Positions 16,133 through 63,737 of a DNA stretch of 64,000 nt are shown one piece after another. The position numbers and the translations under genes are program-made. Position 1 is the stretch's first letter; each line of letters opens with the position of its first letter. Location: the IMG/VR virus record IMGVR_UViG_3300042887_003609, positions 1-64,000 of that record. The stretch is one strand, 5' to 3'. A model generated the notes under the pieces. That model searched no databases. It was given only the letters and a program-made list of their open reading frames with translations, and was not told where the DNA came from. The stretch comes from a virus.

Positions 16133-19100
16133 TTATTTTTTCTTTTTACCTTTACAATTATTTTTAAAATCTTCAAGATCAGGGTCTTCATCTAAAATAT
16201 CATCCATACTAAATCCACCCATAAAACCTAATGCATTTACTGAATTATCTGCAGTTTCAGTTTCAGCTGGATTATTTTGTATAGATTTAATATTATCTTC
16301 TTTAGCTTCAGAATTAACAACAGAATCCTGCTCTTCAAATTTAACACTTTTACCAGACTTTATAAGCTTACTTAATACTTGCTCTGGGAATAATCCATTA
16401 AACTCAACTAAAACAAATCCATCAGCATCAAAGTATTTACCTGGAGTAAGCATATCTTGTCTTATGTTAAACTCAGTTTTTAATCTTTGTATAGCATTAG
16501 TAGCATTAATTTCATCGTTATTTACTACGGGTTGCTCTTCTTGTTTAAGATCTAATACTTCTATTGTTTCTTTAATATCTTCTTTAAGATTTTTAAGATC
16601 TAATCTAATAGACTCATTAGTAGGTATTGCACCTTCAAATATAAATCCTAATGGAGTAGCAGCTTTAACACCAATTTGTTTTGTTTTTCTATAAACAGCA
16701 CCACTACCAAAAGCCATTCCAAAGCCTTTACCAATATAATTAGTTAAATCTTTAGGAGCACCTTTATCAATAAGAGAAGTTTTTACACTTACTAATTCAT
16801 AATAAATATCTCTTTTTTCTTTTCCTAATTCAACTTTTTGTTTTATAACAAAAGGAAAACCAATTACTGTCTTTTTATCAAAAGATTTTAAAGGAAATCC
16901 GGATCTCTCAAGAAAATTTAAGTTATCTTTAAATTTTTCTTTATTAAATTCAGTAATTTCTTCTTGGTACTGTATTCCTTCATCAGAAGTTTTTATTCTT
17001 TCATATTTAACAGCTGTTCCAGCAAACATATCAACTGTAATATATTCACGATCACCTTTAGTTTTTTGTGAATCTACTACTCTAATTACACCTTCACCAG
17101 TTGCTCCAGGATAATATGCTGGGACAGTACCTATATCTTTCCATTTTTTTTCATCTATTTGACTAATACTTCTAACATAGAAACTATTATTAATATGTTT
17201 AGAATAGTTAGTGATAAAGTCTTTAATCAGATTTACAGGAGAAGCACCAAATATAATTCCAAATACTTTTTCTAAACTATCTAAATCTGTAAGATTATTT
17301 TGTTTAGACAATAAATCTAAAGCTTTATTTACAGATTTTAAATAAGGATCTAAAATCTCAGGAGGCATTACAGATAAGAAAGAACCTGATTTAAATTGTA
17401 ATCCGTCTTTTACCATAAGATATGATAACAAACCAAGAGCTTCATCTCTTGTATTAGGATCATTATATAAATCAATAATACTTAATTGTAATCTTTCAAT
17501 CTCTGGTTTAGTTAAACTAGCCCAAGTATTAGTCTCAACATAGTTAATATTTGTTCTATTAGCAAGATTTCTACGTGTTACTACTTCTTTATTCTGTATA
17601 ACATTTGTGATTACAGGAACATTATTTAAGAAATTTAAGAAAGTATTATCAGGAGATTTTTCTCTTAATGAATTAATAATAGCATTAATATTTTTAAAAC
17701 CTTCTTCTTGTTCAGCTTCTAACTGTCTATATATCAATGCATTATTAAGATATTTAGAATAAGAAGAAGATGCTCCTTTATTTGCTTCATTAGTAACAAA
17801 TGCTTTTAAAGTTAAATAAGAAAGTAAATCTTTATTTAAGTTCTCATTAAATTTATCTTCAAAACGTCTATTAACTTTAAAGTTTAACTTAACAGATTCA
17901 AAAAGTTTTTTGAAAAGAGGGGTTCTTCTGATAAACAAGAAACCAGAAAGTTTATCTATTTCTTGTACAATCTTAATATACTCTTTAACTTCAAATGCTT
18001 TAGTTTTAATAGCTTCTCTTAATCCTATAAAAGGTATACTTGATTCATCATAAGTTTCATCACTCATTGCAAAATCTTTTCCTTTAAGAGTTAGACCAAG
18101 ATCGGCTATGTCTTCAGCTAAACCATCAAGATCTTCAAAAGATTTACCTAAGCCCTGAGATATACGTACTATGTTAGCAAGTTTGGTAGCATATGTAGCC
18201 TGTTTAGAAAGCTCACTCCAAGTAAATAACAATTTATAGTTAACCTCTTTATTATCTTTTTCAGTTATACCTTTGTTTAAATCATCACTAGTAAGAATTA
18301 AGTTTTCAATATTTTCAGGTTTTAATGCTTTAAGTTTTTCTTCAAGTATTACGACTGCCGCTTTTTCTTCTTGTTGTGTTTTAAAAGCAGAATTATTATT
18401 TTTAAGAGCAGTATAATAATCTCTAATCACATTAGATGAAGTTATTTTAAGAGCTTTGTTAAAAGGAACTCCTAATGCAACCATGTAAGAAAGAATACCA
18501 ACAGCATCAGGATTTAAGTTAAACTTACTAGCTATAATAAGTTTAGCATTATCTGTCATTGCTGTTACTACAGCAGAAAGTAAATATGCTTTTCTTATAT
18601 CTCCAGCTTTATTAGTTCCAAAATCTCTGTATATGTTTGAAATTACTTTCTCTTTTTTAGTTTTAGAATCTATAACTTTATCATTAATTTGTAAATTAAA
18701 TACTTTATCGTTATCATTTTTAATAGATACTTTATGAGTATTTAAAAAATGGAAAGCTGTATTCATTACAACTGCAGGTCCGATACCTTCGGCACCTTCC
18801 ATAATATTACCAAAACCAGTAACCTTTCCAGTTAAACTATTAACATCAAAATTCTTATCATCTAATAATTCTAAAAATTCAGGATAGTCTTTAAATTCTT
18901 TTTCAAAAGATTCAATTACATCTTCAAAAGGTTGAGTATTTGCAGGATCAAATGAAATTGGGTTACTACCTTCTATTTTAGTGTCAACTGTAACTGCATT
19001 ATTAGATACAAAAGTTCTTCTTGCATTTACAATATTATTATGAAGAATTTCAGGTACAATTTGTTTTTTTATATTAGATGAATTTTCACCGGCTACTTTA

Positions 19101-22100
19101 ACATATGCTTCAGCCGTAGATGGAAGATTTAATTCAATAAGAGTTTGTTTAAGAACTTCTTCTTTATCTATTAAATTATCAACATCATACATTTCATATA
19201 TTTCTTCTTCACTATAACCCATCTCAAACAAGCTTTCAAATTCATCATCAATTTGCTTCTCAAATTTCTTTTCTACTTCAGCAAATTTTAATCTAAACTC
19301 TCTAGTTTTAAATTGAGATTTTAAAAACTCTTCAAATCTATCAGATTTTCCAGTAGCAGTACCAAACTCTATAAACTCAGTTTTACCTTTTATTTTCTTT
19401 TTGTAAAATTCTTTGAACATAGAATACAATTTATCTACGTCAAAGTCATGTCCTGTTACTTCAACCATTTCAGCTGGAGCTACAATGCTAGAAGAATAGA
19501 ACACAGGTAAGAAATCTACTATTTTATAATTTTGAGAAGAGTGTTTATCTTGAGAAGGAATACGTGTTGCAAAGAAATCTGTAACTACATCTGGAGCAAA
19601 ACCATTTGCGCTAATGTAATCCATTATATCTTTAGATAATGGAGGAACCATTACCTCAGCATAAGTACCTGTAATGTTACCTTTAGTATCGTATACTTTT
19701 TGATTATGTCTTAATCGATCAAAGTATACATCACCTACTTGAACATTACGTTCTTCAGCATCAGTAACTGTCTTTTTATTTTCTAACTTATTAGTAAACT
19801 TAGACATTTCTGATTGAGGTACTACTCTTGTTTCAATACTACCATTTGGATAAATCTTAACAACTTCTCTAAGTACATCAAATCCTAAATCAGAAACAAG
19901 TGTTAAAGAATCACCTTTTACTTTTTGATTAGTAACAGATCTAAAATATGAAAAGAAGAACTCAATAAATTTACCTTCTGTAATAATATTATTTAAATTA
20001 TATTTAGGTTGTCCTGTTTCTTCATCAACAGAAAACATACTTATCAACTGTGAAGATCCACCTGATGCTTCAAGTGTTTCTTTAGCATAATTAATAAACT
20101 CTTCAAGCTTAGGAGTTATTCTGTTTTCATTTATAGAATTACCAAGTTCATGTTGTACATCTCCAAAATCAAATAACTTATTTATAGTTTTATTATAAGA
20201 TAATTCAACTTTTCTTGCAGAAGACAATTGATAAATATTTCTTAAATCCTTAATTGGTATATCTTTACCTAAATAATTAACTTCTACATCTTCATTTAAT
20301 TCAGATTCTACAATAACTTTAATCTGACTAGGATCTGTAATTTTCTTTTTACCACCTGGGTTTTCTGTTTGTAATCCCCAGTAACTATTGTCTAATTGAG
20401 TAAAATAGTTATTATCAGCTGTATTTATAGTTTCAGTTAAGTTATCACCATTTTCACCAAATACATTTGACTTCTTCATTTTAATTGAAGATGCTGGAGC
20501 AGCAAAAGCAAAAGTTTCGGGAGTTTCTCTTTCAAATCTTTCAAGTCTTTCTCTAAGATTATGCAAAAATTCTCTACCTGGTTTAGCTTGCCAACCATCT
20601 TTTGTTTTATTAGAAGTTAATTCTTTAGTTAATAAAGCAACAGATGTTTTAATGTAGTTTTGTTTATCATCATAGTATACAAGTTTTAAAGAATTAAACT
20701 TTGCATCATAATCAAACATACCTGCTACATTTTTGCTACCAAAATATTTACTTGAAGTAATAGGTACACCAGCTTCTATATCATCTAAGAAAGCAGCCAC
20801 TTGTTTATTCAAACGTCCAAGACCCCATAATGTATAACGTAATCCTTTAACTGTGGTATAAGTTTGACCATCAGCTCTTTCAATTTCTTTTTTGCTAGCG
20901 TTAGTAGATCTTACAGTAGGTTCATTAAATACAAGAATGTGTGACTTATCTGATTTATGGTTTATACCATATTCAGGTGCAGTAAATGTACTAGCAATAT
21001 TAATAAATGCAGCATTCATACCTTTAGCACGTTTGAAAGCATCAATAGCATCTTTAATACCTACAGTCTCATCTCCAATAGTTAAATTATTATAGAATAA
21101 AGTATTGTAATAGTCATTTAAAAATACTTGAGCTAAGTTAAATCTAACATTACCTTCTCTTAAATTTATATTGTCATCAACCTTAGTAATTTTATCACTT
21201 AAAAGTTCGTTATCATAAATCTTTTTATTTGCTTTAATTACACCTAAACTTTCTAAAACATTTAAGAAATCATCAACCTGACTTTCAAAATAATCTGCAA
21301 TTTGACCAGTTAAATTTAAAGCAAAGTTTTTATCTTTAAATATTTCAGAAGTAGTAGTTTCATTTAATAAAGTATCATATAAAGTACTTCCATTCATCAT
21401 AAGAAGTTCTTTCATAGATGGACTAAAATCAATACCTCTTTTCTTACCAGTATGATAACCTTCAATTACTTCACCACCATTCTTAATATAAGCATCTTTA
21501 CCAATTTCTTCAATCTGTCTAATCTCTTCTCTAGTTTTTTCAATTCTTTTAAGTTGTCTTAAAATTTCTTGAGCAATACTATTAGTAAAATCTTTATTAA
21601 ACACATAACCTCTAGAAGCTTTATTATCTTGTGTTATAGTTTTTATAACGGGTAATTCTATAAACTCAGCAGTACTAGATGCTTCAAGAATACGTGTAAG
21701 AACAGGTGCTCTAAACGCACTTCCCATTATGCCATCTTCTTTTTGATAGTTCTGATAATAAGTACCATTAATAGCATTATCAATCATGAAAAGCATAAGA
21801 TCTCTAGGTGAGAATTTTTTATAGGCTTTAGCTTGAGATAATTTATTTGACTCTAATTTTTTATTTTGATTACCTTTATCATCTAAAGTTGATTCTTTTA
21901 ATTCACCAATACGTTTAGTAATAAACTGGGGACTTAATGCTAAATTCTTAAACTCTAGGTTATTAAATAAAGGATTATATCTTAAATCATCCGGAAGATC
22001 TTCAGCTTTAACATCTTTGTTTTTAAGAACAAGATCTTTAATTTTTGTTAATATTCTTCTATTAAATGTAGGTATTTGATAATTCCAAATCTTATCTCCA

Positions 22101-25100
22101 TTCTCCCTACTAAATGTAGTAGTTGAAACAGTTTCATCAAACTTAGTACTACCTTTAGCTATTTTGTACAAACGAGATATATTATCAATATCTGTTTTTA
22201 AAGGTGCTCCTGAATTAAATTCAGTAGTAGCATCAGATTGATCATTATCTTCTAACTCTTCATCTTCTTCTGTAACAGTGTTACTTAATTCTACTTTAAT
22301 AAATGGATTCTTTCCTGCATTTAAAGAACTCTTAATCCAGTTTATATCTTCATCTGTAATAACAGATTCTAATATATCTTCAGATGAAGTATAAAGAACT
22401 TTTAAATAATTTTGAGTATCAGATGTATACGAAGACTTGTTTAACTCAAAAGAAGCTATAAATCCTTTACTATTTTCTAAAGCTGATAAAACAATGTAGT
22501 CAGGTTTTAAAGTAATACCTAAAGTATCATAAATATTTTTAGATATAACGTTTGCTTGATTAGTTAAATCAATAATATCAGCGTCACTTAAAATTTCTTT
22601 ATCATCAAAATTTAATACTTCATTTTCGGAAATATAAAACTTTAAAGTATCTAATGCAATATTAGATTTAGAAATTAAAGATTCTCTTTCATCAGGCTTA
22701 TTAACAAACTTAGTGTAGAAAATAGAATTAAAAGCATTAGACCAAATACTAAACTGTAACTGAGCAGCTCCTTTTTGATTTGAGTTAAATATTTTAATTG
22801 CATTATTTCTACCTTTAAGCATTGTAACATATGGAGTACTTTGTAAGTATCCCATAGATTTATAGAACAATACCGCAATGTTTGCTTTACTTGGGTTACT
22901 TAAAGAAACAGTTTCATCTGAATCATTTAATATAATACCAGCTTCGTTAAACAATCTATTTACTGCAGCATTAATATGAGGATTATTAGAACTTAAATTT
23001 CTAAGTCTACTGTAAAAATCATATTCATTTACAGAACCTGCAGTTAAACTAAGAATACTATCATATACAGCTTTTGCATCAATAGCTTGTAATAAAGGTT
23101 CTCCTTCTACAAGTTCCGTATTACCAAATTCATCTGATGCTCTTAATGTAGTTGTAGCTAAGAAAGATTTAATGTATGTAGGAAGATTACCAAAACCACC
23201 AATTTCTTCAGCTGTTTTATCAAAGTCTTCAGCTCCTCTTAAACCAAACTCAAGTTCTTTAATTGAATCAGCTAAATTCTCATCTGTAATTTCTTTTACT
23301 TTTCTAATTGTAGATAAGTGTTGTCTTACAGATTCCTTTAACTCAGCAGTATTATTTTCTAATACACTTTCATAAACTAAAAACTTTTCTGCTTCAATAG
23401 ATCCTTCATCAAGATTTACATAAGCTGAAGTTTCACTATCAGAATCATATAAGTTTGTATAGTCTTCAAGAGTTTTATCTAATAATTTTAAAAGACTTAA
23501 ATTATCAGGATTATTATTTTCAAATCTATCTAATACAGTAGATGCAATAGATGATGTAAGATTAATTACATCAGCACTTGCCATGTATTTTACTACTTTT
23601 ACAATTTGCCCAGAAGCATCCATTTGAAAATCAGTTTGATTTTTAAGGATAATTGCTTTTAAAGCAGGTTCAGTAATACCATATTCTAAAGCTTGCTGAG
23701 TAAATACGTTCTTTTGTACAGGAGCAGATTTAAACTGTGCGCTATTAATTCTGTTAAATAAAGTATCTACAGAGTTTTTAGTATATCTGTTAAATACAGA
23801 TTTAATAAGATTAGCTAGTTTATAAAAGAATCCTTTAACTCCAGAATAGTTATTAGTAGTCTGCTGTTGAGTATCATTTAATTTTTTATACTCTTGGAAT
23901 CTATCAGCAAGATGCTCTTCAAACAATCTCTTTTCTAATTGAGATCTTGACATCTTGTTGTAGAATTCCGGATTTGTAGCTACCATATCAGCAATAGCTG
24001 AACTAAGTTGTCTACCTTCTTTCTTTAATTTAGCATATACTTCTTTCTTAGCTTGATCTAAATAATAATTTATTTCATTATCAGTTAAGAATAATCTAAA
24101 TACAGAGTGAAATGCTTCGTGATATTTAAAAGGTGCATCTTTAGATGTTCTGATTACACCACGTATTCCTTCAATACCTAAATCAATATTTTCAAGATGT
24201 GCATAGAACTGTCCCACTGTTACATTACCTGATAACATTTTGTTATTAAGGTTTAATGTATCATCTACAGTTATAATACCTCCTGGAAGATTTGCATTTA
24301 ACCAAGAAATGAATTGATCAAGATCATCTACATCATCCTTAGACCAACTTTGTGAGTCTTTATTAGCAGCATTATTAAGTAGATACTGAAAATATACTTG
24401 TCTAAGATTTACAAGTTTTTTATATTCAGGGTCTTGATCTAGAATTTTAGTTCTTTCACTCTTAGTTTTACCTTTTAATTCTTCAGCTTTTAACTGTTGA
24501 ATTTTTAAAATTCTTTCATCAATTGTTTCACGTAAAGAAACTACTTTAGCAATTTCAATAGTTGCTGGATTATCTGGTATATCTGATGTTAAAGAAGTTT
24601 GACCACCATCTTTTTTAACTTCTTTTTTACTACTATTATCTCTTAGACTAGTATTTGTTTTACCATCACCTTGAACATTTATTCCTGGTGCTTGAATATC
24701 TGATGCTGAAGAAAAACTAATATTAATAGCCCCTGGTTTAATAACTTCTGGTGCTACTGATGTTACCATTGTAGATAAAATATTTTTAACATTATCTACA
24801 TTTACCTCTTTAGGGAACCCTTTTCTAATAGTATCTTTTAGTTTATTTACATCAGCTTTAGTGATTGATTTTTGTCGAACACTTTGTTTATAAAATTTAC
24901 CACTAGCATTTAAATTTAAACCTGGAATTCTTAATGTTAAATTATTATTAGGATTTAAATTAATAGCTAAAGCTTTTTCTAATACTTTAGTTAAAAGATC
25001 ATCTAATGATTTTACTTCATCATAAATAACAATTTTAAAGTCTTTACCATTAGCACCTTTCATAAAACTTTCAACATAACTAAACTGAAAATTTCCTTGA

Positions 25101-28100
25101 TTAGTTATTTCCAATTTAAAATCAATACCTCCATCTGCAGTTTTATTTAAAGCAAAAAATAATTCATCTTTTATTCTATTATTTATAGACAGGTTAGCAT
25201 CTGCTTTATTTATTTCTGCTGGTTTACCATCTTCATCATAAATAACATTTTCTTTTCTAAGTCTATTAGCTTCTTTAATTATATCATTAAATAAGTCTGT
25301 AGTATCTTTAGCAGTTGCCTTACCTGGTCTAAGTTCTATAAACTTATATGTACCATTTGGTATTTTAACTACTAATACATATCTACCTAATGTTTTTGTA
25401 GCATCTTCATAATAAGAAAGACCTTTGTCTTTAACTTGTGTATTAATAGCTTTTCTTATTTCTTCAGCTTCTTGAGGTGTTACATTTTTAGTAATAATTT
25501 TTTCAACTTTAGTTTTAGTTTCTGGATTCTCAAATCTGTCAATTAAATAAATACCATTTTTATTATTTACATATTTGTATTTAAGATCACTAAAATTAGT
25601 AACATTACCACCTGTTAAATACTTATAAGAACCTACGCCTACTTTTGCATAAATATCAGATACAGAATCATACGGTATAACTGTTTCAGGTTTATTTTTA
25701 GATCTAGTTATTAACTCATTTATAAATGCAGAATAAGCGCTAAAAGATTTTTGAAAACCGTCAACAGTTTTTAAACTTTCTATATTAGTAAAAAATATAG
25801 ATTTGTATAGATCACTTGTCATTTGATTAACAGTGATTTCTTTACCTTCTTCATTATAAAATTTAAATGAATTTGGGTTTCTTAAATATCCTACAGTTAC
25901 ACCATTAATCTGTACACCAATTTCATATTCTTCAGACTGATATGCTATTCTATTATTTTTAACACCTTCCTGATTAGTTACAAAATAATTTAATACTGGG
26001 TTAGTAACTTTATTTTTTCTTACAACAAATTTTATTTTAGAAAGTAATTCATCTTTTGGAGTTGTTATTAATAAAGACTCAAACTCAGATTTTAATTCAG
26101 GGTTTTTAGTCCATACTGAATTATAAACCGTAAAAACTTCATTAGGAGAAGCTTTGGGTAAAAGTTCTAAACTAGATGGAGATTCTCCTTTTAAATAAAA
26201 ACCATCTAATGTTTTTACTTTAAAGTAATTACCCACGGGTCTTCCTTTTTCTAGTTTAATTAATAAGAAAGTACCGTCTTTTTCAATGTTAGCTAACTGA
26301 TAAGTTACAGGTTTATTGTCAGTATCTCTTTTTTCAAGAATATCATTTATCTTAAACTTCTTATCTTGTGTAAATACATCTTTTCCTTTTTTAGGTTCAG
26401 TTACTAATAAAGTTTGTTTGTCTCTTAAATCAGTTAATAAAGTACTAATATCTTTTTCTACTATAGGTCTTATCTGTGTAGTATCTTTATCTATAACCAT
26501 TATAGCATTACCTTCTTTATTAAGGAAAGTATAACCTACTGAAGCACCTGCTTTATTTTTTAATTCTACAAATCTTAATTTATTTATAAGATTCAATAAA
26601 CCAGGATTATTAATAATAAGCTTAAGATCATCTTCAGAAAGTTGAGCATCTACAAAAGATACAGTTTCCGGTAATGGAACACCCACGGTTGTTTCTGAAG
26701 TTTCAGTTTCTACAGGTTTATATATATTAACTACGTCTTGTAATTCTAAACCATAGTCAGAAACTAATTTTGCAACTCTAGGATCTTGACCAAAATATTC
26801 AGAAGTTACATACTTTAAAATAAGATCAGGTTTATTCTTTATTATAAGACTATCAGTAGAAGATATAGGCATTACAACATATGACCCAGACTTAGTTGAT
26901 GATAAAAGATTTTTAAATGCATTCATAAAAGCATTTAATCTTTGAATTTGCTCATTACCATCTACATACTGTTGTATTGTAGCACCACCTTTTTGCTCAT
27001 CACTTAATTGAGCAAAACTATTTTCAGCAAACTCTTTAACCTTTACATCTAATTCATCATAAGAGACATTCTTAAATGTAATTGGTTTTTTAGATTGAGA
27101 TTTTTTAGTTGGAGGCTCTTGATTTTTTTTTCTTGCTTCTTCTTCTTTTGCAGCTTGCTCTTTAGTTAAATTATCAAAATCTAAAATTAATCTTTCTACT
27201 TCTTTAAATCTTGGATCTGATTTACTAAAAGTTCTTTGTGTTTTTTGATCAACAAATTTAACATCTGGATCAGTTAACAAAAAAGTTTTAAATGCTTCAT
27301 AACCTTTTGGAATATCTGTAGGTATAGTTGCTTTATCTATAATGAAATTATTATCATCAAGATAGTTTATAAGTTCATTTGTTTTAGCATCTGAAAGAAA
27401 CTCTTTAAAGCTTTCTTTCATAAAGTCAGCTCTTTTTTCTTCAAATGCTTTTCTTGCTTTTATTCTTCTATTTACTTCATTGTAAAATCCTACTGGATCA
27501 GTAAGACTATTTACTGCTTCTGTAAATCTACCTAAATCTTTATTAAGAGCTAAGTAATCTATAAAGTAAGTATATGCTTTTTCAAGATCTGCTTTAATAA
27601 AAGTTTTATTATTATTTTCAGCAAGTTGATTCATGTACTTTACAAAAGCATCTTTAATCCATCTTGCTTTTTCTAATTCAGTTTTATCTTCAATAGACTC
27701 TATCTTCTCAAAATGTTTTTTAAACTGTTCTAAAGCTTTTAGTTTTTTAGATTTATTTTCAGTTTGTTTTTTAAGAGCTGGATCAGTTACATCTTTTGAA
27801 GTTTCAATTTCTTGAGATAAGATATCTATTTCAGTCTGAAGATCTGTAACACTTAATAAAGGTAATACATCACTAAAGGCTATATCACCAAGATTACTAA
27901 TCTCTGTAATATTATTACTTAAATCTTGTAAACGTTTAGAAACTAAATCTATATTATGTAAACTAAAAGTAGCAATCTTTCTAGCATCTTCAAATCCTTG
28001 ATAACCAATTCTTTCTGTTTGAAATTGTTTAAAAGATTCAGGATCTTTTATAGATTCTAAAGTATATTTATTTGGATTAAAAGGATTTTTATATTCAGAA

Positions 28101-30184
28101 AATTGTTCATACTGAGATTTAATTTGATTAGCTCTTGATATGGCAACATCAAGAACTTTCTTAGCTTCCTCTTCAGTTACATCATCAGATAATTCAAATG
28201 CTTCTTTTAACTCAGCACCATTCATCTGTTTCATGTCTTCTAATTTCTGTTGTAAGAAATTAAACTTACCAGTTTCCAGTGCAGTATAAATACTATTAAA
28301 TCTAGCAGCATCTTTAATATCATGGAATGCTTTTTCATCAAATGATTTTAAAGCATCTACCATATCAGCACCTGCTCTTATTTGAACTAATAAGTTTTCA
28401 AAGTCAGGAGTTAATATCTTATTACCTTTTTGAATTGCTTCATTTAATTCATCAGCAATTGCATTAAATCTTTTTGTTTCTTCATCAAAAAGTTGTTTGT
28501 ATTTAGCAGGATCTTTTTTCTCATAGTACTTTTGGATGGTAGCTACTTTAGCACCTGACATTGCAGCACCTGATATTCCTGCTAAACCACCCATTAAAAA
28601 TCCAGAAAGAAATGTTTCAACACCTTGTCCAGATGCTTGAGCTTTAAGATTTTCAAAAGCATCAGTTAAATAAAGATTAACTCCACCAGCTTCAGGTGTT
28701 CTGTAAAGTCTTTCAAAATAATCAGTAGAAGCACCTCCAATAATTTCTTGAGATGTTTCTTGTATACCTTCAGCTAAGTTAGCAGCAAAATATCTTCTAG
28801 TAAAATCTAAATATTCTTTTGGTTTAGTAAAACCTTTAAGAGCAAGTTTAGTATTTTCAGCTAACCCTGCAGTTATTTTAGCTTCACCAGTAACTGGATC
28901 AATAATTAATTTTCTACCGGTTTTAGAACTTTGAGTTACTAATTTATCAGTAGATTTAACAAGAGCAGTCTTACCACCTTTAAATAAGTTATCAAATGTA
29001 ATACCATTTGTAAGATAGATAAGTGGTGCATTTATCATGCCTGTAGTAAAACCGGCATCTTCTGCTAATTGATAAATTTTATTAAGATCTTCTTCTTCAG
29101 GATAATAACCTTTTTCGTTAATAAATTCTTGAACTCTTTTATCAATAAATTCATTTTTAATCATACCACCTTCAAGAGATGATTCAGAAGTAGTATATGA
29201 TATCTGTTTAACATCCTTTACAAAATCACCAACTCCTCTGGCTACTTGAGCTAGGTCTGTAATTTGACTATTACCTTTGATTAGATTAGATATATTTGTA
29301 ACAGTGTTAGGAGCCAAATTTTTAACACCTTGAGATAACATAGATACTCCACCGTCAACTATATTTGCAACTTTAGCAGTTCTAACTGTATTATAAACTT
29401 CTCTAGCTGTATTAGCACTAGCTAATTTTCTTAAATCTGCAATACGTTTTGCTAACTGTGCAGTCTTAGCAGTAGAAGCAGCAATAGCTCCAGGTAAAGC
29501 AATACCTTCAGATAAAGCAGTGATACCAGCTAATGCTGCTTCAGTTGCAATATAATCAGCAGTAATGCCTGCAATGATACCTGATTGTAAAACTAAATTA
29601 CTTGTAAAGCCTGTAACACCACCTTTAGTGCTACCATACTTTGCCATAATTTCTTCAAACTCATTTGCTCCTTGTTCATCTGTAAAACTAAAATCACCTG
29701 AAAACATATCACCAAGTGATCTATAGCCAGACTTTACAAATGATGCACCTAAGTGTGGAATGTGTGAAGCACCTCTCCATAAATCTTGATACCAAGATCT
29801 ATTTGCGTTATATACTTCTTCATTATTTGCAATTGGATTAAACCCTAATTTATAAAAATTATCAGAGTCATTATAGTATCTATCAAAGTTTGTTTGTTTA
29901 TAACCTGATGCAAAACTATAAGGTTTAGCAGCTTGAAAAGCCATTTGTTCTGGAGTAGCTCCATTCTCTTGAGTCTTCTTAAAAAACTCAAAAGGATTAT
30001 TATTATTATATTCTACATCCACTACACCAGATGGTGTTGGAATTGCAGGAATACTAGTATCAAAATTAACCGGTACTAAATTATCTATTGGGTTAGGTGT
30101 TTGAAAATTAAACTCAGGGTTCATTCCTACACCTTCACCAAATGCAGGCGGAATGTTTAAATTACCGTTCTCAAAATCTTGCAT
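16133..30184 (-). CDS. Giant virion RNA polymerase fused to HEAFH zincin and membrane segments
   Basis: 4,683 residues, one of the longest phage frames I can recall. The polymerase core is marked by RIPSQDKHSSQ and VDFLP (about 3535-3555) and VTGHDFDVDKL, with D-F-D-V-D at 3580-3584, the catalytic metal loop of crAss-like/DPBB single-chain RNA polymerases. At 2022-2026 HEAFH, with EEHLAD at 2089-2094, gives a complete gluzincin zinc site, perhaps a maturation protease. Hydrophobic Ala/Gly-rich segments at about 188-240 and 515-545 suggest membrane insertion or passage on ejection. By analogy with the Cellulophaga phage phi14:2 enzyme, it should enter the cell with DNA and transcribe early genes. 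No frameshift is seen. Confidence 0.85.
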   Translation of the reverse strand: MQDFENGNLNIPPAFGEGVGMNPEFNFQTPNPIDNLVPVNFDTSIPAIPTPSGVVDVEYNNNNPFEFFKKTQENGATPEQMAFQAAKPYSFASGYKQTNFDRYYNDSDNFYKLGFNPIANNEEVYNANRSWYQDLWRGASHIPHLGASFVKSGYRSLGDMFSGDFSFTDEQGANEFEEIMAKYGSTKGGVTGFTSNLVLQSGIIAGITADYIATEAALAGITALSEGIALPGAIAASTAKTAQLAKRIADLRKLASANTAREVYNTVRTAKVANIVDGGVSMLSQGVKNLAPNTVTNISNLIKGNSQITDLAQVARGVGDFVKDVKQISYTTSESSLEGGMIKNEFIDKRVQEFINEKGYYPEEEDLNKIYQLAEDAGFTTGMINAPLIYLTNGITFDNLFKGGKTALVKSTDKLVTQSSKTGRKLIIDPVTGEAKITAGLAENTKLALKGFTKPKEYLDFTRRYFAANLAEGIQETSQEIIGGASTDYFERLYRTPEAGGVNLYLTDAFENLKAQASGQGVETFLSGFLMGGLAGISGAAMSGAKVATIQKYYEKKDPAKYKQLFDEETKRFNAIADELNEAIQKGNKILTPDFENLLVQIRAGADMVDALKSFDEKAFHDIKDAARFNSIYTALETGKFNFLQQKLEDMKQMNGAELKEAFELSDDVTEEEAKKVLDVAISRANQIKSQYEQFSEYKNPFNPNKYTLESIKDPESFKQFQTERIGYQGFEDARKIATFSLHNIDLVSKRLQDLSNNITEISNLGDIAFSDVLPLLSVTDLQTEIDILSQEIETSKDVTDPALKKQTENKSKKLKALEQFKKHFEKIESIEDKTELEKARWIKDAFVKYMNQLAENNNKTFIKADLEKAYTYFIDYLALNKDLGRFTEAVNSLTDPVGFYNEVNRRIKARKAFEEKRADFMKESFKEFLSDAKTNELINYLDDNNFIIDKATIPTDIPKGYEAFKTFLLTDPDVKFVDQKTQRTFSKSDPRFKEVERLILDFDNLTKEQAAKEEEARKKNQEPPTKKSQSKKPITFKNVSYDELDVKVKEFAENSFAQLSDEQKGGATIQQYVDGNEQIQRLNAFMNAFKNLLSSTKSGSYVVMPISSTDSLIIKNKPDLILKYVTSEYFGQDPRVAKLVSDYGLELQDVVNIYKPVETETSETTVGVPLPETVSFVDAQLSEDDLKLIINNPGLLNLINKLRFVELKNKAGASVGYTFLNKEGNAIMVIDKDTTQIRPIVEKDISTLLTDLRDKQTLLVTEPKKGKDVFTQDKKFKINDILEKRDTDNKPVTYQLANIEKDGTFLLIKLEKGRPVGNYFKVKTLDGFYLKGESPSSLELLPKASPNEVFTVYNSVWTKNPELKSEFESLLITTPKDELLSKIKFVVRKNKVTNPVLNYFVTNQEGVKNNRIAYQSEEYEIGVQINGVTVGYLRNPNSFKFYNEEGKEITVNQMTSDLYKSIFFTNIESLKTVDGFQKSFSAYSAFINELITRSKNKPETVIPYDSVSDIYAKVGVGSYKYLTGGNVTNFSDLKYKYVNNKNGIYLIDRFENPETKTKVEKIITKNVTPQEAEEIRKAINTQVKDKGLSYYEDATKTLGRYVLVVKIPNGTYKFIELRPGKATAKDTTDLFNDIIKEANRLRKENVIYDEDGKPAEINKADANLSINNRIKDELFFALNKTADGGIDFKLEITNQGNFQFSYVESFMKGANGKDFKIVIYDEVKSLDDLLTKVLEKALAINLNPNNNLTLRIPGLNLNASGKFYKQSVRQKSITKADVNKLKDTIRKGFPKEVNVDNVKNILSTMVTSVAPEVIKPGAINISFSSASDIQAPGINVQGDGKTNTSLRDNSSKKEVKKDGGQTSLTSDIPDNPATIEIAKVVSLRETIDERILKIQQLKAEELKGKTKSERTKILDQDPEYKKLVNLRQVYFQYLLNNAANKDSQSWSKDDVDDLDQFISWLNANLPGGIITVDDTLNLNNKMLSGNVTVGQFYAHLENIDLGIEGIRGVIRTSKDAPFKYHEAFHSVFRLFLTDNEINYYLDQAKKEVYAKLKKEGRQLSSAIADMVATNPEFYNKMSRSQLEKRLFEEHLADRFQEYKKLNDTQQQTTNNYSGVKGFFYKLANLIKSVFNRYTKNSVDTLFNRINSAQFKSAPVQKNVFTQQALEYGITEPALKAIILKNQTDFQMDASGQIVKVVKYMASADVINLTSSIASTVLDRFENNNPDNLSLLKLLDKTLEDYTNLYDSDSETSAYVNLDEGSIEAEKFLVYESVLENNTAELKESVRQHLSTIRKVKEITDENLADSIKELEFGLRGAEDFDKTAEEIGGFGNLPTYIKSFLATTTLRASDEFGNTELVEGEPLLQAIDAKAVYDSILSLTAGSVNEYDFYSRLRNLSSNNPHINAAVNRLFNEAGIILNDSDETVSLSNPSKANIAVLFYKSMGYLQSTPYVTMLKGRNNAIKIFNSNQKGAAQLQFSIWSNAFNSIFYTKFVNKPDERESLISKSNIALDTLKFYISENEVLNFDDKEILSDADIIDLTNQANVISKNIYDTLGITLKPDYIVLSALENSKGFIASFELNKSSYTSDTQNYLKVLYTSSEDILESVITDEDINWIKSSLNAGKNPFIKVELSNTVTEEDEELEDNDQSDATTEFNSGAPLKTDIDNISRLYKIAKGSTKFDETVSTTTFSRENGDKIWNYQIPTFNRRILTKIKDLVLKNKDVKAEDLPDDLRYNPLFNNLEFKNLALSPQFITKRIGELKESTLDDKGNQNKKLESNKLSQAKAYKKFSPRDLMLFMIDNAINGTYYQNYQKEDGIMGSAFRAPVLTRILEASSTAEFIELPVIKTITQDNKASRGYVFNKDFTNSIAQEILRQLKRIEKTREEIRQIEEIGKDAYIKNGGEVIEGYHTGKKRGIDFSPSMKELLMMNGSTLYDTLLNETTTSEIFKDKNFALNLTGQIADYFESQVDDFLNVLESLGVIKANKKIYDNELLSDKITKVDDNINLREGNVRFNLAQVFLNDYYNTLFYNNLTIGDETVGIKDAIDAFKRAKGMNAAFINIASTFTAPEYGINHKSDKSHILVFNEPTVRSTNASKKEIERADGQTYTTVKGLRYTLWGLGRLNKQVAAFLDDIEAGVPITSSKYFGSKNVAGMFDYDAKFNSLKLVYYDDKQNYIKTSVALLTKELTSNKTKDGWQAKPGREFLHNLRERLERFERETPETFAFAAPASSIKMKKSNVFGENGDNLTETINTADNNYFTQLDNSYWGLQTENPGGKKKITDPSQIKVIVESELNEDVEVNYLGKDIPIKDLRNIYQLSSARKVELSYNKTINKLFDFGDVQHELGNSINENRITPKLEEFINYAKETLEASGGSSQLISMFSVDEETGQPKYNLNNIITEGKFIEFFFSYFRSVTNQKVKGDSLTLVSDLGFDVLREVVKIYPNGSIETRVVPQSEMSKFTNKLENKKTVTDAEERNVQVGDVYFDRLRHNQKVYDTKGNITGTYAEVMVPPLSKDIMDYISANGFAPDVVTDFFATRIPSQDKHSSQNYKIVDFLPVFYSSSIVAPAEMVEVTGHDFDVDKLYSMFKEFYKKKIKGKTEFIEFGTATGKSDRFEEFLKSQFKTREFRLKFAEVEKKFEKQIDDEFESLFEMGYSEEEIYEMYDVDNLIDKEEVLKQTLIELNLPSTAEAYVKVAGENSSNIKKQIVPEILHNNIVNARRTFVSNNAVTVDTKIEGSNPISFDPANTQPFEDVIESFEKEFKDYPEFLELLDDKNFDVNSLTGKVTGFGNIMEGAEGIGPAVVMNTAFHFLNTHKVSIKNDNDKVFNLQINDKVIDSKTKKEKVISNIYRDFGTNKAGDIRKAYLLSAVVTAMTDNAKLIIASKFNLNPDAVGILSYMVALGVPFNKALKITSSNVIRDYYTALKNNNSAFKTQQEEKAAVVILEEKLKALKPENIENLILTSDDLNKGITEKDNKEVNYKLLFTWSELSKQATYATKLANIVRISQGLGKSFEDLDGLAEDIADLGLTLKGKDFAMSDETYDESSIPFIGLREAIKTKAFEVKEYIKIVQEIDKLSGFLFIRRTPLFKKLFESVKLNFKVNRRFEDKFNENLNKDLLSYLTLKAFVTNEANKGASSSYSKYLNNALIYRQLEAEQEEGFKNINAIINSLREKSPDNTFLNFLNNVPVITNVIQNKEVVTRRNLANRTNINYVETNTWASLTKPEIERLQLSIIDLYNDPNTRDEALGLLSYLMVKDGLQFKSGSFLSVMPPEILDPYLKSVNKALDLLSKQNNLTDLDSLEKVFGIIFGASPVNLIKDFITNYSKHINNSFYVRSISQIDEKKWKDIGTVPAYYPGATGEGVIRVVDSQKTKGDREYITVDMFAGTAVKYERIKTSDEGIQYQEEITEFNKEKFKDNLNFLERSGFPLKSFDKKTVIGFPFVIKQKVELGKEKRDIYYELVSVKTSLIDKGAPKDLTNYIGKGFGMAFGSGAVYRKTKQIGVKAATPLGFIFEGAIPTNESIRLDLKNLKEDIKETIEVLDLKQEEQPVVNNDEINATNAIQRLKTEFNIRQDMLTPGKYFDADGFVLVEFNGLFPEQVLSKLIKSGKSVKFEEQDSVVNSEAKEDNIKSIQNNPAETETADNSVNALGFMGGFSMDDILDEDPDLEDFKNNCKGKKKK

Positions 30185-30193
30185 AGTTCAAAA

Positions 30194-32869
30194 TTAGTTA
30201 TAATTATCTAGTCCAAAAAGCATTGAGTTAAACGTAGCTAAATCAATAGGGTTTTGTGGTATGTATTGTAAAGTTCTAGTTTTAGTATCTATTATAGTTC
30301 CAGATGGAACTACCATCCCATCATCTTGCATTTTAAATGTAATGTCTGCTTGAATCTTTGGATTATAATATTGATACTGACCTGTGCTTTTTAAAATTAC
30401 TTCTCTATTATTTACAGAAGTATTTTGATTTAAGTAAGTATTACTTATAGTCTGTTTTGGAATTACTACTGTAATACCTTGAGAAATAACTTTATTATAT
30501 TCTTCCTCTTCTATAGCTTTAGAATCTAATAAAGCTTTTAATGTTTTATCATCTGCTGAAGGTCTTATATGAAGTGTTCCATATTTTTTTGATCCTAAAC
30601 CTAATGGTGAATATGAATATGCTACAGGATTTTTATTAACTCTCATATTAACTCTTAAGTTATTAACATATCCTTGCATTACGTCAGATGCTTTTATATC
30701 TTCAAAATCATCTTCTGATTCACTTCTTACAGTTTCAGGAGAACCTAATGCAACTTTAGAACCTGCTAAACTAGAAGTAATATCATATAATGCAAGAGTT
30801 TGCTTTGACTTATTTCTTTTTGGATCTGCAACACCACTAATTACATAATCAGTAGTTATACCACCTCCACCGCCAAGACCTATACCTCCGGCAGGAACAT
30901 AAGATTTATTTTGAATAGCATAGTTTATATACTTTTCATCAAAGTCTTCTTTTTGATCATCATATAAACTTTCAAAATATTGTTTAGCTGTTGTTTTAGA
31001 ACCAAACATTCGTTTAAATCCTTCTATTTCTGCAGATGCAAAACCAGATAACATTCTTTGTTCTAATCCTTTAGTACCATACTTTGATACATATTCATTA
31101 TAAGCAGCAGTTTTGTTTCTTAATCTTCCATTTTTATCAAACATAGAAGATAATAAAACTTTATCAAATTCATCAGTAGCTTTATCTGCTAATAGATTAT
31201 TAACTACAGCCTTATTATTTTTTGCAATTGTTACATCAGTAGCATCCATCATTTGTCTTGCATCGTTTGCATTTTTTAATGGTGTGCTAATAGCTGAATT
31301 TAATTCAGGATATCTTGTAAACAAATCAGAAATTTTACCGTGAATTGCTCTAAGTTTATTAGTAGATAAAACACCTGATTGTAAATCAGCAAGCTTTACA
31401 TTTTCAGACTGTAACATTTTATTTACAGCACTTTTAATATTTGGATCATTTATATTTAAAGCACCTGTTACTATAGAATTAACGGCACCAGAATAATTTT
31501 TCCAGGATTGATTATAAACCTCTCTATCTTCTTTAAGAACATTAATATCCTGACCAGCTTGAGTAGTAGTGGCTTGTGGAATAAATTCATCATAGTCACC
31601 TCCTTCTAATTCTTTTTTATATTTTTCAAGTTTAAGATCATAATTAAAGTCAAGCTCTTTTTCCATTTGAGTATAAGACCAATCTACTTTCTTTTTCCAA
31701 TTGTACATTTCAAACTCATCTGGTTTTTGTGATATCTGATAATCTTTATATGCTTGAATATTTGAAGCTTGTACAAGATTATCAGATATAAAACTTGATG
31801 CCTGAGATTGAATAGCTGCATTTTCTAAAATAGATAAATCATTATTATTATATGCATCTCTAATTACTCTAATTCTTTCATTTGTACTTTCAAGATTTTC
31901 AGAATAAACATTTTTTTGTTTTGTTAACTGCTGGTATTCTAATTGTTCTTTAGTAGAAAGCTTTCCACCATTTGATAATCTTGCATTATAAATATCAATT
32001 TTAGATTCTACATCATCTAAACTTTTTTGAATAAGTAATGTTTTTGCTGCATCATTATTTAATAAATCATTTGCAATAGTTGGAAAATATTCTGCTTTTG
32101 CTTGATTAATATCTCCATTATATTTTGTATTTGCTAATGGTAAAACATCATTCATTACATTAACATATGCTTGAGTTTGAGCATATTTTTTTACACGAGG
32201 ATCAACTCCAAGAGTTGAAGATAATTGTTGTAATATTACATTAAAAGCTTTTGGTCCATTTTTAGTAGTTACCATATAACCACCAGACTTTTCATCAATT
32301 GATATGTTAGTAAACTTTTCACCCAATATTTTTTCAGCTTCAGTAAATATATTTACATATGGAACATATTCCGGTGCAGAAACCTTTCTTGCATTTTCAT
32401 CATCACTACTTTGAAATTCTTTTAATTTGTAGTTAATAGCTTGCATTGATACATCTGAGTATTTTCCTTTACAATCATCAGATAAACAATTTTTATAACT
32501 TTCTCCTTCACTTAAAGCCTGTTTAGCTTTTTTAGTGTACATCATGTCATATACAATATTGTTATCCTCATAAAAAGGTTTAAAAACATTGCTAGCCAAT
32601 TGTACATTTTGTGGAAGAGATAAATCAAGTGATGATATTTTTTTAATATTATCTTCTGCAGCTTTTAAAAATTCTGCTCTTCTTTGTTGATTAACAGGTC
32701 TAGTCAAATCTGAATTAAGAATTGAACTATACACATCATTTACCTGACTAAATCCTGCGTTATATTGACTCTGCTTATATTGCAAAGCATTCATCAAAAA
32801 GTCATAGTCAGGTTTAAATGGCTGGATATCCGGAAAGGTATCTGTTATATTAGGAATATAGGTTGCCAT
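30194..32869 (-). CDS. Putative virion cargo protein
   Basis: 891 residues, mostly predicted helical and polar, with long Lys/Glu/Gln-rich stretches (residues 270-420), a glycine run near 660 (GLGGGGGITT) and a beta-rich C-terminus. No enzyme motif is visible. It lies between the structural genes and the giant RNA polymerase, the place occupied by ejected cargo proteins in crAss-like phages; that is the basis for the call. It is the first gene behind a phage-type promoter at 32873-32886 and ends 9 bases before the polymerase start, so it heads the cargo operon. Confidence 0.6.
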   Translation of the reverse strand: MATYIPNITDTFPDIQPFKPDYDFLMNALQYKQSQYNAGFSQVNDVYSSILNSDLTRPVNQQRRAEFLKAAEDNIKKISSLDLSLPQNVQLASNVFKPFYEDNNIVYDMMYTKKAKQALSEGESYKNCLSDDCKGKYSDVSMQAINYKLKEFQSSDDENARKVSAPEYVPYVNIFTEAEKILGEKFTNISIDEKSGGYMVTTKNGPKAFNVILQQLSSTLGVDPRVKKYAQTQAYVNVMNDVLPLANTKYNGDINQAKAEYFPTIANDLLNNDAAKTLLIQKSLDDVESKIDIYNARLSNGGKLSTKEQLEYQQLTKQKNVYSENLESTNERIRVIRDAYNNNDLSILENAAIQSQASSFISDNLVQASNIQAYKDYQISQKPDEFEMYNWKKKVDWSYTQMEKELDFNYDLKLEKYKKELEGGDYDEFIPQATTTQAGQDINVLKEDREVYNQSWKNYSGAVNSIVTGALNINDPNIKSAVNKMLQSENVKLADLQSGVLSTNKLRAIHGKISDLFTRYPELNSAISTPLKNANDARQMMDATDVTIAKNNKAVVNNLLADKATDEFDKVLLSSMFDKNGRLRNKTAAYNEYVSKYGTKGLEQRMLSGFASAEIEGFKRMFGSKTTAKQYFESLYDDQKEDFDEKYINYAIQNKSYVPAGGIGLGGGGGITTDYVISGVADPKRNKSKQTLALYDITSSLAGSKVALGSPETVRSESEDDFEDIKASDVMQGYVNNLRVNMRVNKNPVAYSYSPLGLGSKKYGTLHIRPSADDKTLKALLDSKAIEEEEYNKVISQGITVVIPKQTISNTYLNQNTSVNNREVILKSTGQYQYYNPKIQADITFKMQDDGMVVPSGTIIDTKTRTLQYIPQNPIDLATFNSMLFGLDNYN

Positions 32870-32872: not shown

Positions 32873-32886
32873 TACAATACAATATA
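32873..32886 (-). promoter_or_regulatory. Phage-type promoter motif for the cargo/RNA polymerase operon
   Basis: TATATTGTATTGTA on the minus strand, ending four bases before the ATG at 32869. It matches the lysis-operon motif at 12 of 14 positions and would drive the 891, 4,683 and 2,175-residue genes with an extremely short leader. Confidence 0.55.
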
Positions 32887-46362: not shown

Positions 46363-46959
46363 CTAATCAAAATTAAATTCGTCATAAGTCACTAAAGAAG
46401 CCTGATCTATTACCTTTGGAGTGTATAAAGATAGATACTTTGGGTTCTTAGAAAATATTTTAGATACCTTTTGAAACTTCTGTATCTTTATATATTTCTC
46501 CCATTCTTCCGGGTATCTTTTTGCTAGTGTTCTTTTAAATTGTCTCACTGCAGAAAATCCCCAAAGTTCTCTATTGGTAAACTTATATTTATTTGCGTAG
46601 TTAGTATAAAAGATCTTAGCAAGTTTAGAATCAGATTCTAAATTGTTATGAGTCACTTTTACATCTAACTCCTTAGACAAAATATAATTGACGTTATGTT
46701 TGGTATTTGGTTTATCACATGTACCTATAAACATATAACCTAAGTTTTCAGGTAATGCAATACCATCCCTTTCATCAAGTACAGTTTGCCAAAGTTTACC
46801 GTTAAACATCTTTACAATTTTTTTAAAAGTATCAATGTCTAACTCTTCATATTCCGGGTGCTCTTTTTTAAATTCTTCAAAAGTTAAAGAGTTTAATAGA
46901 TTTAAATGTTTCTTTCTAAATCTAGGAGCGTGTATATCAGGTGCCTTGAATGACTTCAT
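46363..46959 (-). CDS. Conserved phage protein of unknown function, head of tail-ring operon
   Basis: 198 residues, basic, mixed alpha/beta. Recognisable parts are SLTFEEFKKEHPEYEELDIDTF, ENLGYMFIGTCDKP and FTNRELWGFSAVRQFKRTLAKR. Proteins of this shape occur just upstream of ring-protein genes in crAss-like phages, but no activity is known to me. It is the first gene of the structural operon: a phage-type promoter motif (46968-46982) ends 8 bases before the ATG. Confidence 0.6.
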   Translation of the reverse strand: MKSFKAPDIHAPRFRKKHLNLLNSLTFEEFKKEHPEYEELDIDTFKKIVKMFNGKLWQTVLDERDGIALPENLGYMFIGTCDKPNTKHNVNYILSKELDVKVTHNNLESDSKLAKIFYTNYANKYKFTNRELWGFSAVRQFKRTLAKRYPEEWEKYIKIQKFQKVSKIFSKNPKYLSLYTPKVIDQASLVTYDEFNFD

Positions 46960-46967: not shown

Positions 46968-46982
46968 TACATTAATAAGATA
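46968..46982 (-). promoter_or_regulatory. Phage-type promoter motif for the tail-ring operon
   Basis: TATCTTATTAATGTA on the minus strand, the 15-base spacing variant of the motif, with one base changed in the first box. Confidence 0.5.
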
Positions 46983-46998: not shown

Positions 46999-48186
46999 TT
47001 AAATAGCATTATAAATAAACTCTGCAATCTTACCTTCATCATAAGAATGTATATCAATTATAGCTGCCCGTTTGTTACCTACAAATTTATTATGATAATG
47101 ATAATAATCTGTTTTAGATAGACTTGGTAGTATCTTTAAAGTAAAACCGGTACTCTCATCTTCAGTAATATATTCTATAGTTTTCTTTTTATGATAGTGA
47201 CCTGTATATAGAGTTCTATATTTAGTAATACCCCATGCTGCTGAATTTTCAGTTGCATAAATTATAAGTGAATTTTTAGTGTTTGTATCACCATGTTCAA
47301 AAGCAAAGAAATTATCACCACATGTAAATACTTTTCTTTCATCATATTCTACATGCCAGTGAATATTTTCTTCTCTTATTGCTTTAGATAAGGCATGTGC
47401 TAAATGATAAGAAGATAATCTATCATGATTACCCGGAATATACACAACATGTAATTCATTAGCATATTCTGACATGTATCTAATAGAATTAAATAAAGCA
47501 TCAAATGCTTGCTTATACATATCATAAGCCATTGGATATTGACCAATTGGCGTACCGGATGTAGTAGTTCCTAAAAAGGTATCTACATTTAGAATATCTC
47601 CACCTATAACATAGTATAACTTATCTATATTATAGATCTTATCTGTTTTAGTTATAAGATTAACTACAGCTTCTGTATACTCTTCTGTTATATTATCATT
47701 TTCTATTTTACCAAAATGTATATCTTGTATAGATAAAACAGCACAAATATCTTCTAGATTATTTTTTTCTTTTTTTAATCTAGTTAAAGGTTTATAACTA
47801 GGATTATAATTTTTTAATAAATCTTCTAATAAAGTTTCTTCAGTTTTCTTAATTTGAGTTACTAAAGCAGAAACCAACCATTTGTCATTCTGTTGTTTAT
47901 TCCAGTATTGAGATAGTTTCCAGACTTCTGTATCAATGTTTAATAACTTAATGATTTCTTCAGGTGTCTTAGGATTTTTACTTGTTATACATTCTATCCT
48001 ACTCTCTCCTTTTTCTAAGTTAACTGATTGAGTGTAAGTAACTTGATTAGATGATTTACTAACTAATTCTTTTTTTAATTTAAGGTAAGTTTCTAAATCT
48101 AGATTTAATGATTTAGCACAATAGGCATTAGATTTTTTCCATTTTAATGATGCCTCCACCCTTTTCAATAGTTTAGTATTGTTCAT
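46999..48186 (-). CDS. Calcineurin-like metallophosphoesterase
   Basis: 395 residues. All five metal-binding blocks are present: DIH (155-157), GGDILN (195-200), GNHD (252-255), EHGD (297-300) and GHYH (329-332). The first 45 residues look like a helix-turn-helix (LLKRVEASLKWKKSNAYCAK). The insert GTTTSGTPIG (206-215) is typical of phage members. Possible roles are a DNA 3'-5' nuclease (SbcD/Mre11-like), RNA or nucleotide phosphatase. It has its own phage-type promoter motif (48205-48219) and lies alone between fibre B and the ring operon. Confidence 0.85.
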   Translation of the reverse strand: MNNTKLLKRVEASLKWKKSNAYCAKSLNLDLETYLKLKKELVSKSSNQVTYTQSVNLEKGESRIECITSKNPKTPEEIIKLLNIDTEVWKLSQYWNKQQNDKWLVSALVTQIKKTEETLLEDLLKNYNPSYKPLTRLKKEKNNLEDICAVLSIQDIHFGKIENDNITEEYTEAVVNLITKTDKIYNIDKLYYVIGGDILNVDTFLGTTTSGTPIGQYPMAYDMYKQAFDALFNSIRYMSEYANELHVVYIPGNHDRLSSYHLAHALSKAIREENIHWHVEYDERKVFTCGDNFFAFEHGDTNTKNSLIIYATENSAAWGITKYRTLYTGHYHKKKTIEYITEDESTGFTLKILPSLSKTDYYHYHNKFVGNKRAAIIDIHSYDEGKIAEFIYNAI

Positions 48187-48204: not shown

Positions 48205-48219
48205 TACAATAATAATATA
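48205..48219 (-). promoter_or_regulatory. Phage-type promoter motif for the metallophosphoesterase gene
   Basis: TATATTATTATTGTA on the minus strand, the 15-base spacing variant, 18 bases before the ATG at 48186. Confidence 0.5.
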
Positions 48220-48244
48220 TTTTCTTTAATATCTCTATAAAATA

Positions 48245-48274
48245 ATAAACCCTGGATTTTAACCCAGGGTTTAT
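48245..48274 (-). terminator. Terminator of the 1,259-residue fibre gene
   Basis: An 11-bp perfect stem (ATAAACCCTGG with its complement, arms 48245-48255 and 48264-48274) and an 8-base loop, followed on the minus strand by T-rich sequence. Its core AAACCCTG/CAGGGTTT recurs in the terminator at 55671-55701. Confidence 0.75.
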
Positions 48275-48367
48275 CTAACCTCTAAAACCAACAAAAGAGA
48301 TTAACGAATGTATACATATATAATATAGTATTAACCTCTAATATTAGCAAGATAAATTTTATTTATT

Positions 48368-52147: not shown

Positions 52148-52208
52148 GATATTATAATTTTTGAAGTAGTACTACCTATATATAATATACTCCAAAAATT
52201 ATAATATC
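52148..52208. promoter_or_regulatory. Perfect 16-bp inverted repeat enclosing the fibre B promoter
   Basis: Arms 52148-52163 (GATATTATAATTTTTG) and 52193-52208 are exact complements around a 29-base loop. The loop holds a TATATTATA promoter-like stretch (minus strand, within 52173-52189) and a 10-bp palindrome GTAGTACTAC (52166-52175). The repeat abuts the start codon at 52147. It could be an operator, a switch structure or a terminator for the upstream DUF2061 operon. Confidence 0.6.
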
Positions 52209-55654: not shown

Positions 55655-55659
55655 AAAAG

Positions 55660-55667
55660 CAAATATA
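55660..55667 (-). promoter_or_regulatory. Bacteroidota-type -7 box (TATATTTG) for the sulfation operon
   Basis: TATATTTG on the minus strand, then CTTTT and the ATG at 55654; it matches TAnnTTTG and directly follows the T-tract of the terminator at 55671-55701. A near-leaderless transcript is implied. Confidence 0.65.
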
Positions 55668-55670
55668 ATA

Positions 55671-55722: not shown

Positions 55723-56043
55723 TTAAGCGTTAGAAGATTCCAATGTAACGATAGTTACTGTACCTTCTCCAGTTACAGCTTCAACAGCTACTTTAACCTT
55801 TTCGTGCATATCAGTAGCTAAGGTAGTACCCCAGAATTGCTCTGCTGTAACTTCTAAGCTTACACGTGAAGGAAGTTCCTGAATGTTCAAAGGTGATTTT
55901 CCAGCTAAATAATCAGCTTCACTTTTGAAATAAGATACGTTAGTCCATGAATCATTTAAAAGATAAATGCTCAAGAATCCAAAACACTCGCTAACCACAA
56001 ACCCTTCCTGGGTTGTTAGTTCTTTTGATATTTTTACTGCCAT
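55723..56043 (-). CDS. Small protein of unknown function between fibre A and the sulfation operon
   Basis: 106 residues, mixed alpha/beta (MAVKISKELTTQEGFVVSEC, then LSIYLLNDSWTNVSYFKSEADYL and VKVAVEAVTGEGTVTIV). No signal peptide, metal site or family is recognised. It is a single-gene unit: a phage-type promoter motif (56069-56083) lies 26 bases upstream, and a terminator follows. Expression in step with the fibres suggests a virion part or assembly helper, which is inference. Confidence 0.65.
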   Translation of the reverse strand: MAVKISKELTTQEGFVVSECFGFLSIYLLNDSWTNVSYFKSEADYLAGKSPLNIQELPSRVSLEVTAEQFWGTTLATDMHEKVKVAVEAVTGEGTVTIVTLESSNA

Positions 56044-56068: not shown

Positions 56069-56083
56069 TACACTATTAATATA
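56069..56083 (-). promoter_or_regulatory. Phage-type promoter motif for the 106-residue gene
   Basis: TATATTAATAGTGTA on the minus strand, the 15-base spacing variant, preceded by TATTTG. Confidence 0.55.
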
Positions 56084-63723: not shown

Positions 63724-63737
63724 ATTTATAGAAATAT

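Follow-up and report, generated by a model that had tools for sequence, protein, structure and literature searches.

A putative late promoter class, apparently derived from the host promoter, in uncultured crAss-like phages

The locus and its promoter sites

The DNA analyzed here, referred to as the window, is a stretch of 64,000 nucleotides corresponding to bases 1–64,000 of a 74,484-base viral record (31% GC); the record is a fragment, and its end falls in the head genes. The window carries virion genes in one long block on the minus strand. Inside this block, and on the same strand, lie the genes of a 2175-aa RNA polymerase-associated subunit (9603–16130), which matches crAss001 gp49 and phi14:2 gp65, and of a 4683-aa crAss-type RNA polymerase (16133–30184) with the catalytic sequence TGHDFDVDKLY, which was matched by hhalign to phi14:2 gp66 and crAss001 gp50 (probability 99.9, E-value 1.4e-35). 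Because both products match the polymerase proteins of crAss001 and phi14:2, and a giant DxDxD-containing RNA polymerase with its associated subunit inside the virion-gene block marks a Crassvirales-type phage, the protein sequences identify the source of the window as a crAss-like phage. The catalytic polymerase is about twice as long as its homologs (2180 aa in phi14:2, 2412 aa in crAss001), and the extra N-terminal part of ~2300 aa had no PDB match by sequence.

No close named family was found: in the phage collection, no record exceeds 28% identity to the major capsid protein across its length, while proteins 82–94% identical to it are encoded in many uncultured contigs. The lineage of this phage is deep and uncultured. 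The closest named capsid match (28%) is PP438436.1 (Leptolyngbya phage Lbo-JY46), whose polymerase subunit matches as well; it was deposited with a cyanobacterial host, which is unexpected in a crAss-like relative. A peptide-pattern search with the 2175-aa protein and an 891-aa protein recovered no relatives. The relatives considered below are metagenomic contigs, part of them fragments; G000 stands for the present record, G001–G019 for long relatives, and L-numbers for related loci.

The sequence-only reading had proposed a promoter family, TATATTA(N)TANTGTA, with six members of 14 or 15 bases, each just upstream of an operon start. A check of the sequence found all six at the stated coordinates on the minus strand; each lies in a non-coding gap, and the minus-strand gene behind it starts 3–81 nt further on. 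The 14-base form is represented by TATATTATAGTGTA at 9417–9430, before the operon beginning with 9163–9369 (score 27.8, rank 1), by TATATTGTATTGTA at 32873–32886, 3 nt before the ATG of gene 30194–32869 (score 18.0), and by a second copy of TATATTATAGTGTA at 63756–63769, before gene 62197–63723 (score 23.2), where an inverted repeat follows. The 15-base form is represented by TATCTTATTAATGTA at 46968–46982 before gene 46363–46959 (score 23.5), TATATTATTATTGTA at 48205–48219 before gene 46999–48186, and TATATTAATAGTGTA at 56069–56083 before gene 55723–56043 (score 17.7). Gene 30194–32869 sits immediately upstream of the RNA polymerase genes. Departures from the consensus occur at 32873 (G for A at position 7) and at 46968 (C for A at position 4); the TATATTG variant is kept in the ortholog in G016, and the C variant in G016, G017, G018, and G019. 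Orthologs of the 63756 promoter are present in G001, G007, G010, G015, G016, G018, and G019, and at the position of the 48205 promoter relatives carry a host-type TAnnTTTG box.

Several members had been missed. A third copy of TATATTATAGTGTA lies beyond the window at 72298–72311, and TATATTATATATGTA at 48313–48327 (minus strand, score 10.0) lies immediately ahead of a conserved RNA hairpin and a terminator, and is orthologous to a promoter found 124 nt before gene 46999–48186 in L013, L173, L175, L176, and L180. Degenerate members lie at 65251, 66674, and 68887, and perhaps at 52169, where the weak match TATATTATATATAGGTAGTAC (52169–52189, minus strand) precedes gene 48368–52147. The host promoter class coexists with the motif in the late block; for example, the host-type box TATATTTG (55652–55670, minus strand) is located after a terminator and before gene 54779–55654.

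Distribution of the motif in the record and its relatives

Exact matches to the consensus, in either spacing, occur five times in the record (9417, 63756, 72298, 48205, and 56069). All five are intergenic and on the minus strand, with none on the plus strand or within genes; the expectation is 0.045 per shuffled record, and the maximum in 200 shuffles was one. Counts in the window with one mismatch allowed were weaker, at 4 versus 1.06 and 4 versus 1.08 expected. Since this excess is modest, the case is carried by the position of the sites and by comparison with relatives. A weight matrix trained solely on other phages ranked six real sites of the record, all of them intergenic and on the minus strand, at the top. 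At a matrix score of 12 or higher, there were seven intergenic minus-strand matches, none that were intergenic on the plus strand, and one coding match on each strand, in a record of which ~2% is non-coding. Equal frequency of the motif in genes or on the plus strand, which would have spoken against the sequence-only reading, was thus not observed: seven of the nine matrix matches are intergenic and on the minus strand. A sigma70 scan of the window gave no excess over shuffles.

Among ca. 160 related loci, the exact motif recurs, nearly always in the sense orientation, in gaps preceding an ATG, and usually after TTTG. In whole records of relatives it tracks the late genes, with a backwards-read control staying low. 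Quantification in nine genomes (the present record and eight long relatives, with genes called by a simple script and upstream gaps extracted) indicated that the motif, with at most one mismatch, precedes 37 of 143 genes in the late block and 4 of 198 other genes; the mirror pattern precedes none of the late-block genes, and the antisense pattern one. In an unbiased count of k-mers, the top word of the late gaps was GTATATT, found in the sense orientation in 26 gaps and in antisense in 1, with 2.5 expected; in the other gaps, TATATTT and ATATTTG, words of the host box, ranked high. Among 104 non-redundant late regions, the motif was found in 25 sense and 0 antisense cases and the host box in 22 and 4, respectively, with both together in 4 regions. 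The corresponding numbers in 168 other regions were 5 and 6 for the motif, and 26 and 14 for the host box. L093 keeps the exact 14-mer in the spacer that follows its capsid gene, with the bases around it changed.

The claim of a promoter class that differs from the host box and is tied to phage operon starts thus holds beyond the present record: the motif is conserved throughout the phage clade and restricted to the late module. It was not found in phi14:2 and crAss001, which share the genome layout, with late genes in one strand block and polymerase genes near, but carry plain TAnnTTTG boxes before their late genes. In 11 cultured or named records, several Crassvirales families among them, counts with one mismatch did not exceed those of a reversed-pattern control, and the idea that the motif is common to all Crassvirales was rejected. 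Judged from its sequence distribution, the motif is specific to one clade of uncultured crAss-like phages of Bacteroidota and is a promoter of their late genes.

The suggestion that spacing sets timing was not supported by comparison with relatives, because orthologous promoters of one gene differ in spacing. The promoter of gene 62197–63723 has the 14-base form in G000, G001, G007, G010, G016, G018, and G019, and the 15-base form in G015; the spacing is also 15 before the same-looking gene start in L015, L024, and L034. The promoter of gene 46363–46959 is of the 15-base form in most genomes, and of the 14-base form (TAAATTATAATGTA) in G007. Both forms are present in the late block, and ordinary one-base freedom between the −7 box and the start would explain them.

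Promoter anatomy and adjacent repeats

The primary promoter of Bacteroidota, recognized by sigma-ABfr, consists of a −33 TTTG and a −7 TAHHTTTG, with ~20 nt between TTG and the box. In Flavobacterium johnsoniae, the −7 element comprises T−12, A−11, T−8, T−7, T−6, and G−5, of which T−6 and G−5 are near invariant, and transcription starts 4–5 nt further on (PMC6847099). In F. johnsoniae coordinates, the TATATT of the motif spans −12 to −7, so that T−12, A−11, T−8, and T−7 are kept in nearly all sites. The T−6 and G−5 columns, in contrast, are occupied by A (85–95%) and by T (76–100%) or another base in place of the host bases. The motif further differs from the host promoter in the TTTTG directly upstream, in the TGTA at the predicted start, and in its use before late phage genes only.

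An alignment of 58 non-redundant sites revealed, in columns outside the search pattern, a G at −1 and T-rich positions from −5 to −2 relative to the motif. In 15 of the 58 sites a TTG begins precisely 23 nt ahead of the first T, with no other offset accounting for more than four; of 13 host-type boxes in phi14:2 and crAss001, six place TTG at this distance too. Of the six sites in the window, five have T at −23 and none a complete TTG, so the evidence for this element rests on the relatives. Because the kept −7 bases and the TTG offset align with the host promoter, the motif appears to be a host promoter frame in which T−6 and G−5 were rewritten, and to which an upstream TTTTG and a start-site TGTA were added. 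With the published distance from box to start, the G of the 15-base form would fall on +1, and transcription most likely starts at or beside the G of TGTA. The distance from the motif to the ATG varies between 3 and 127 nt, and a role as a translation-start signal was rejected on this ground.

Inverted repeats occur near some sites. At the 9417 site, a 9-bp hairpin begins at the GTA of TGTA; a general 5′ hairpin at the start was rejected, however, since such hairpins, though striking at a few sites, show no overall enrichment (14 of 30 versus 10.8 expected). The inverted repeat at 63735–63764 takes in the TATAGTG of the 63756 promoter itself, is partly kept in the orthologs in G016, G018, and G019 (TATAGTGTACAC...GTGTGCACTATA in G016), and is possibly an operator or a 5′ hairpin. 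A perfect 16-base inverted repeat, GATATTATAATTTTTG and CAAAAATTATAATATC (52148–52163 and 52193–52208), surrounds the promoter-like TATATTATATATAGG before gene 48368–52147 and is a possible operator.

A separate RNA stem-loop is located at 48275–48304 (minus strand), past the stop of the upstream gene, before a terminator (48244–48275), and upstream of gene 46999–48186. Its core TTGGTTT (usually TTTGTTGGTTTT) is invariant in 24 of 24 aligned sequences; the stem varies in sequence but pairing is kept in most (mean 6.8 bp versus 4.2 with shuffled flank). A late-type promoter immediately precedes it in this phage and in L013, L173, and L176, and the stem-loop may alternatively be an independent small RNA. 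Rfam gave no match in the window, this element included.

The enzyme and factor that may read the motif

In phi14:2, the virion polymerase transcribes the early genes and is resistant to rifampicin, and in cultured crAss-like phages the host polymerase is credited with late transcription (PMC10136315, PMC8375218). The four of six host −7 bases that the motif keeps, and in relatives a TTG at the −33 distance of the host, point to a host RNA polymerase whose specificity has been changed, which is also the simplest account. We consider it somewhat better than an even bet (probability of roughly 55%) that the motif is a late promoter derived from the host frame and read by host RNA polymerase that a phage factor has retargeted. 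In the scheme that we infer, including its start site, reader, factor, and timing, the ancestral promoter would have been a host TTG, ~20 nt, and TAHHTTTG. T−12, A−11, T−8, and T−7 would have stayed, T−6 and G−5 would have been exchanged (giving TATATTAT), TTTTG would have been added just upstream, and TGTA laid over the start site. A phage-encoded factor produced before the late genes would alter the −7 specificity of the host enzyme, and structural and polymerase genes would thereby be switched on late.

The sequence-only reading had also named a phage RNA polymerase as a possible reader. The phage's own crAss-type enzyme (the 4683-aa and 2175-aa proteins), newly made, could serve the late genes by reading an AT-rich box near −10 and a start-site base, as jumbo-phage virion polymerases do. 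It is encoded within the same late block, the crAss001 transcriptome paper proposed that newly made subunits might serve late genes (PMC8375218), and the early promoters of AR9 and phiKZ resemble the motif in that an AT-rich box containing TATATTAT is combined with a G at the start site. Yet the box-to-G distance is 6 nt in AR9 (AAATATATATTAT-(6N)-G; PMC5312081) and only 3–4 nt here, those promoters serve early genes while the motif is confined to the late block, and the polymerase family is different. Moreover, phi14:2 and crAss001 have homologous polymerases but host boxes at their late genes, the phi14:2 enzyme serves early genes while genes of the early strand here lack the motif, and a sigma-less enzyme gives no reason to expect TTG at the −33 distance of the host. 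We regard this alternative as a tentative one, with odds well below even. A dedicated late system in a wider sense, read either by a newly made crAss-type polymerase or by a holoenzyme in which a new, non-sigma phage factor replaces T−6/G−5 recognition, falls somewhat short of an even chance.

The primary sigma of the clade's hosts might also simply accept TATATTA-N3/4-TGTA, which would make a phage factor superfluous. The retained −7 bases and −33 frame would agree with a plain host promoter, as would the presence of host-type and motif promoters side by side in the late block. Given the near invariance of T−6 and G−5 in F. johnsoniae, however, plain host polymerase should read the motif poorly. 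Nor should a promoter of general use in the host be limited to one module, so a motif found late only, in genomes whose TAHHTTTG boxes occur in both blocks, counts against this view, which we consider unlikely. Instead of a promoter, a regulatory site in DNA or RNA, such as a repressor operator, processing site, or 5′ mRNA stability element, could account for the sites that overlap inverted repeats or precede a hairpin from GTA (9417 and 63756), but hairpins are not generally enriched, the ATG distance is variable, some sites follow terminators, and the sites, placed where operons begin, line up with the host promoter frame; such a role seems very improbable. Chance AT-rich matches, which the modest one-mismatch counts in the window might suggest, are contradicted by the exact counts, the strand and position bias, the mirror controls, and the conservation in relatives, and we give them practically no weight.

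For the retargeted host enzyme, the phage factor foreseen by the sequence-only reading stays plausible, though our searches yielded a candidate rather than an identified factor. None of the sigma domains PF04542, PF04545, and PF08281 scored over cut-off in ten records (G000, eight relatives, and phi14:2), one of which, G000, is a fragment, in a search that would miss a divergent factor; a phage sigma detectable by Pfam was accordingly rejected, with one sub-threshold region-4-like stretch in G016. Six of the eight relatives (G001, G007, G010, G014, G018, and G019) encode a clade-specific protein of 120–131 aa at the border of the late block (12608–12976 in G018), which was not seen in G015 and G016 or in phi14:2 and crAss001. 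It is predicted to fold as a winged helix (pLDDT 77), with Fur/MarR-like matches at E-values of 4e-3 or worse and no significant PDB match (best E-value 4.4e-3). Based on the model, this protein is a candidate factor only; it is itself encoded in the late block and may be a repressor. A conserved early protein of 121–158 aa was rejected as the factor; its predicted fold is beta-rich and had no PDB match.

In its logic, the proposed system resembles T4 late transcription, with a host core enzyme, an altered −10 element, and late genes only. The T4 late promoter is TATAAATA, is used with the factors gp55, gp33, and gp45, and lacks a −35 contact; its sequence is unlike the motif, and no gp55-like sigma was detected here. 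phiEco32-like phages likewise combine the host core enzyme with a phage specificity factor for their own promoters, but encode a sigma factor, while no sigma domain was detected here.

A literature search found no late promoter motif described for crAss-like phages. What is provisionally new here is a phage late promoter derived from a host promoter; the novelty is provisional because the key phi14:2 paper (10.1038/s41586-020-2921-5) could contain relevant data. At the promoter level, the switch of crAss-like phages from virion-polymerase early to late transcription had no description in the literature searched. It can now be approached through a defined class of sequences whose likely ancestor is the host box of phi14:2 and crAss001, through a candidate factor, and through the exact changed positions (−6, −5, the upstream TTTTG, and the start TGTA), and therefore becomes testable by Flavobacterium reporters without phage culture. 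If the crAss-type polymerase reads the motif, this would be its first known promoter.
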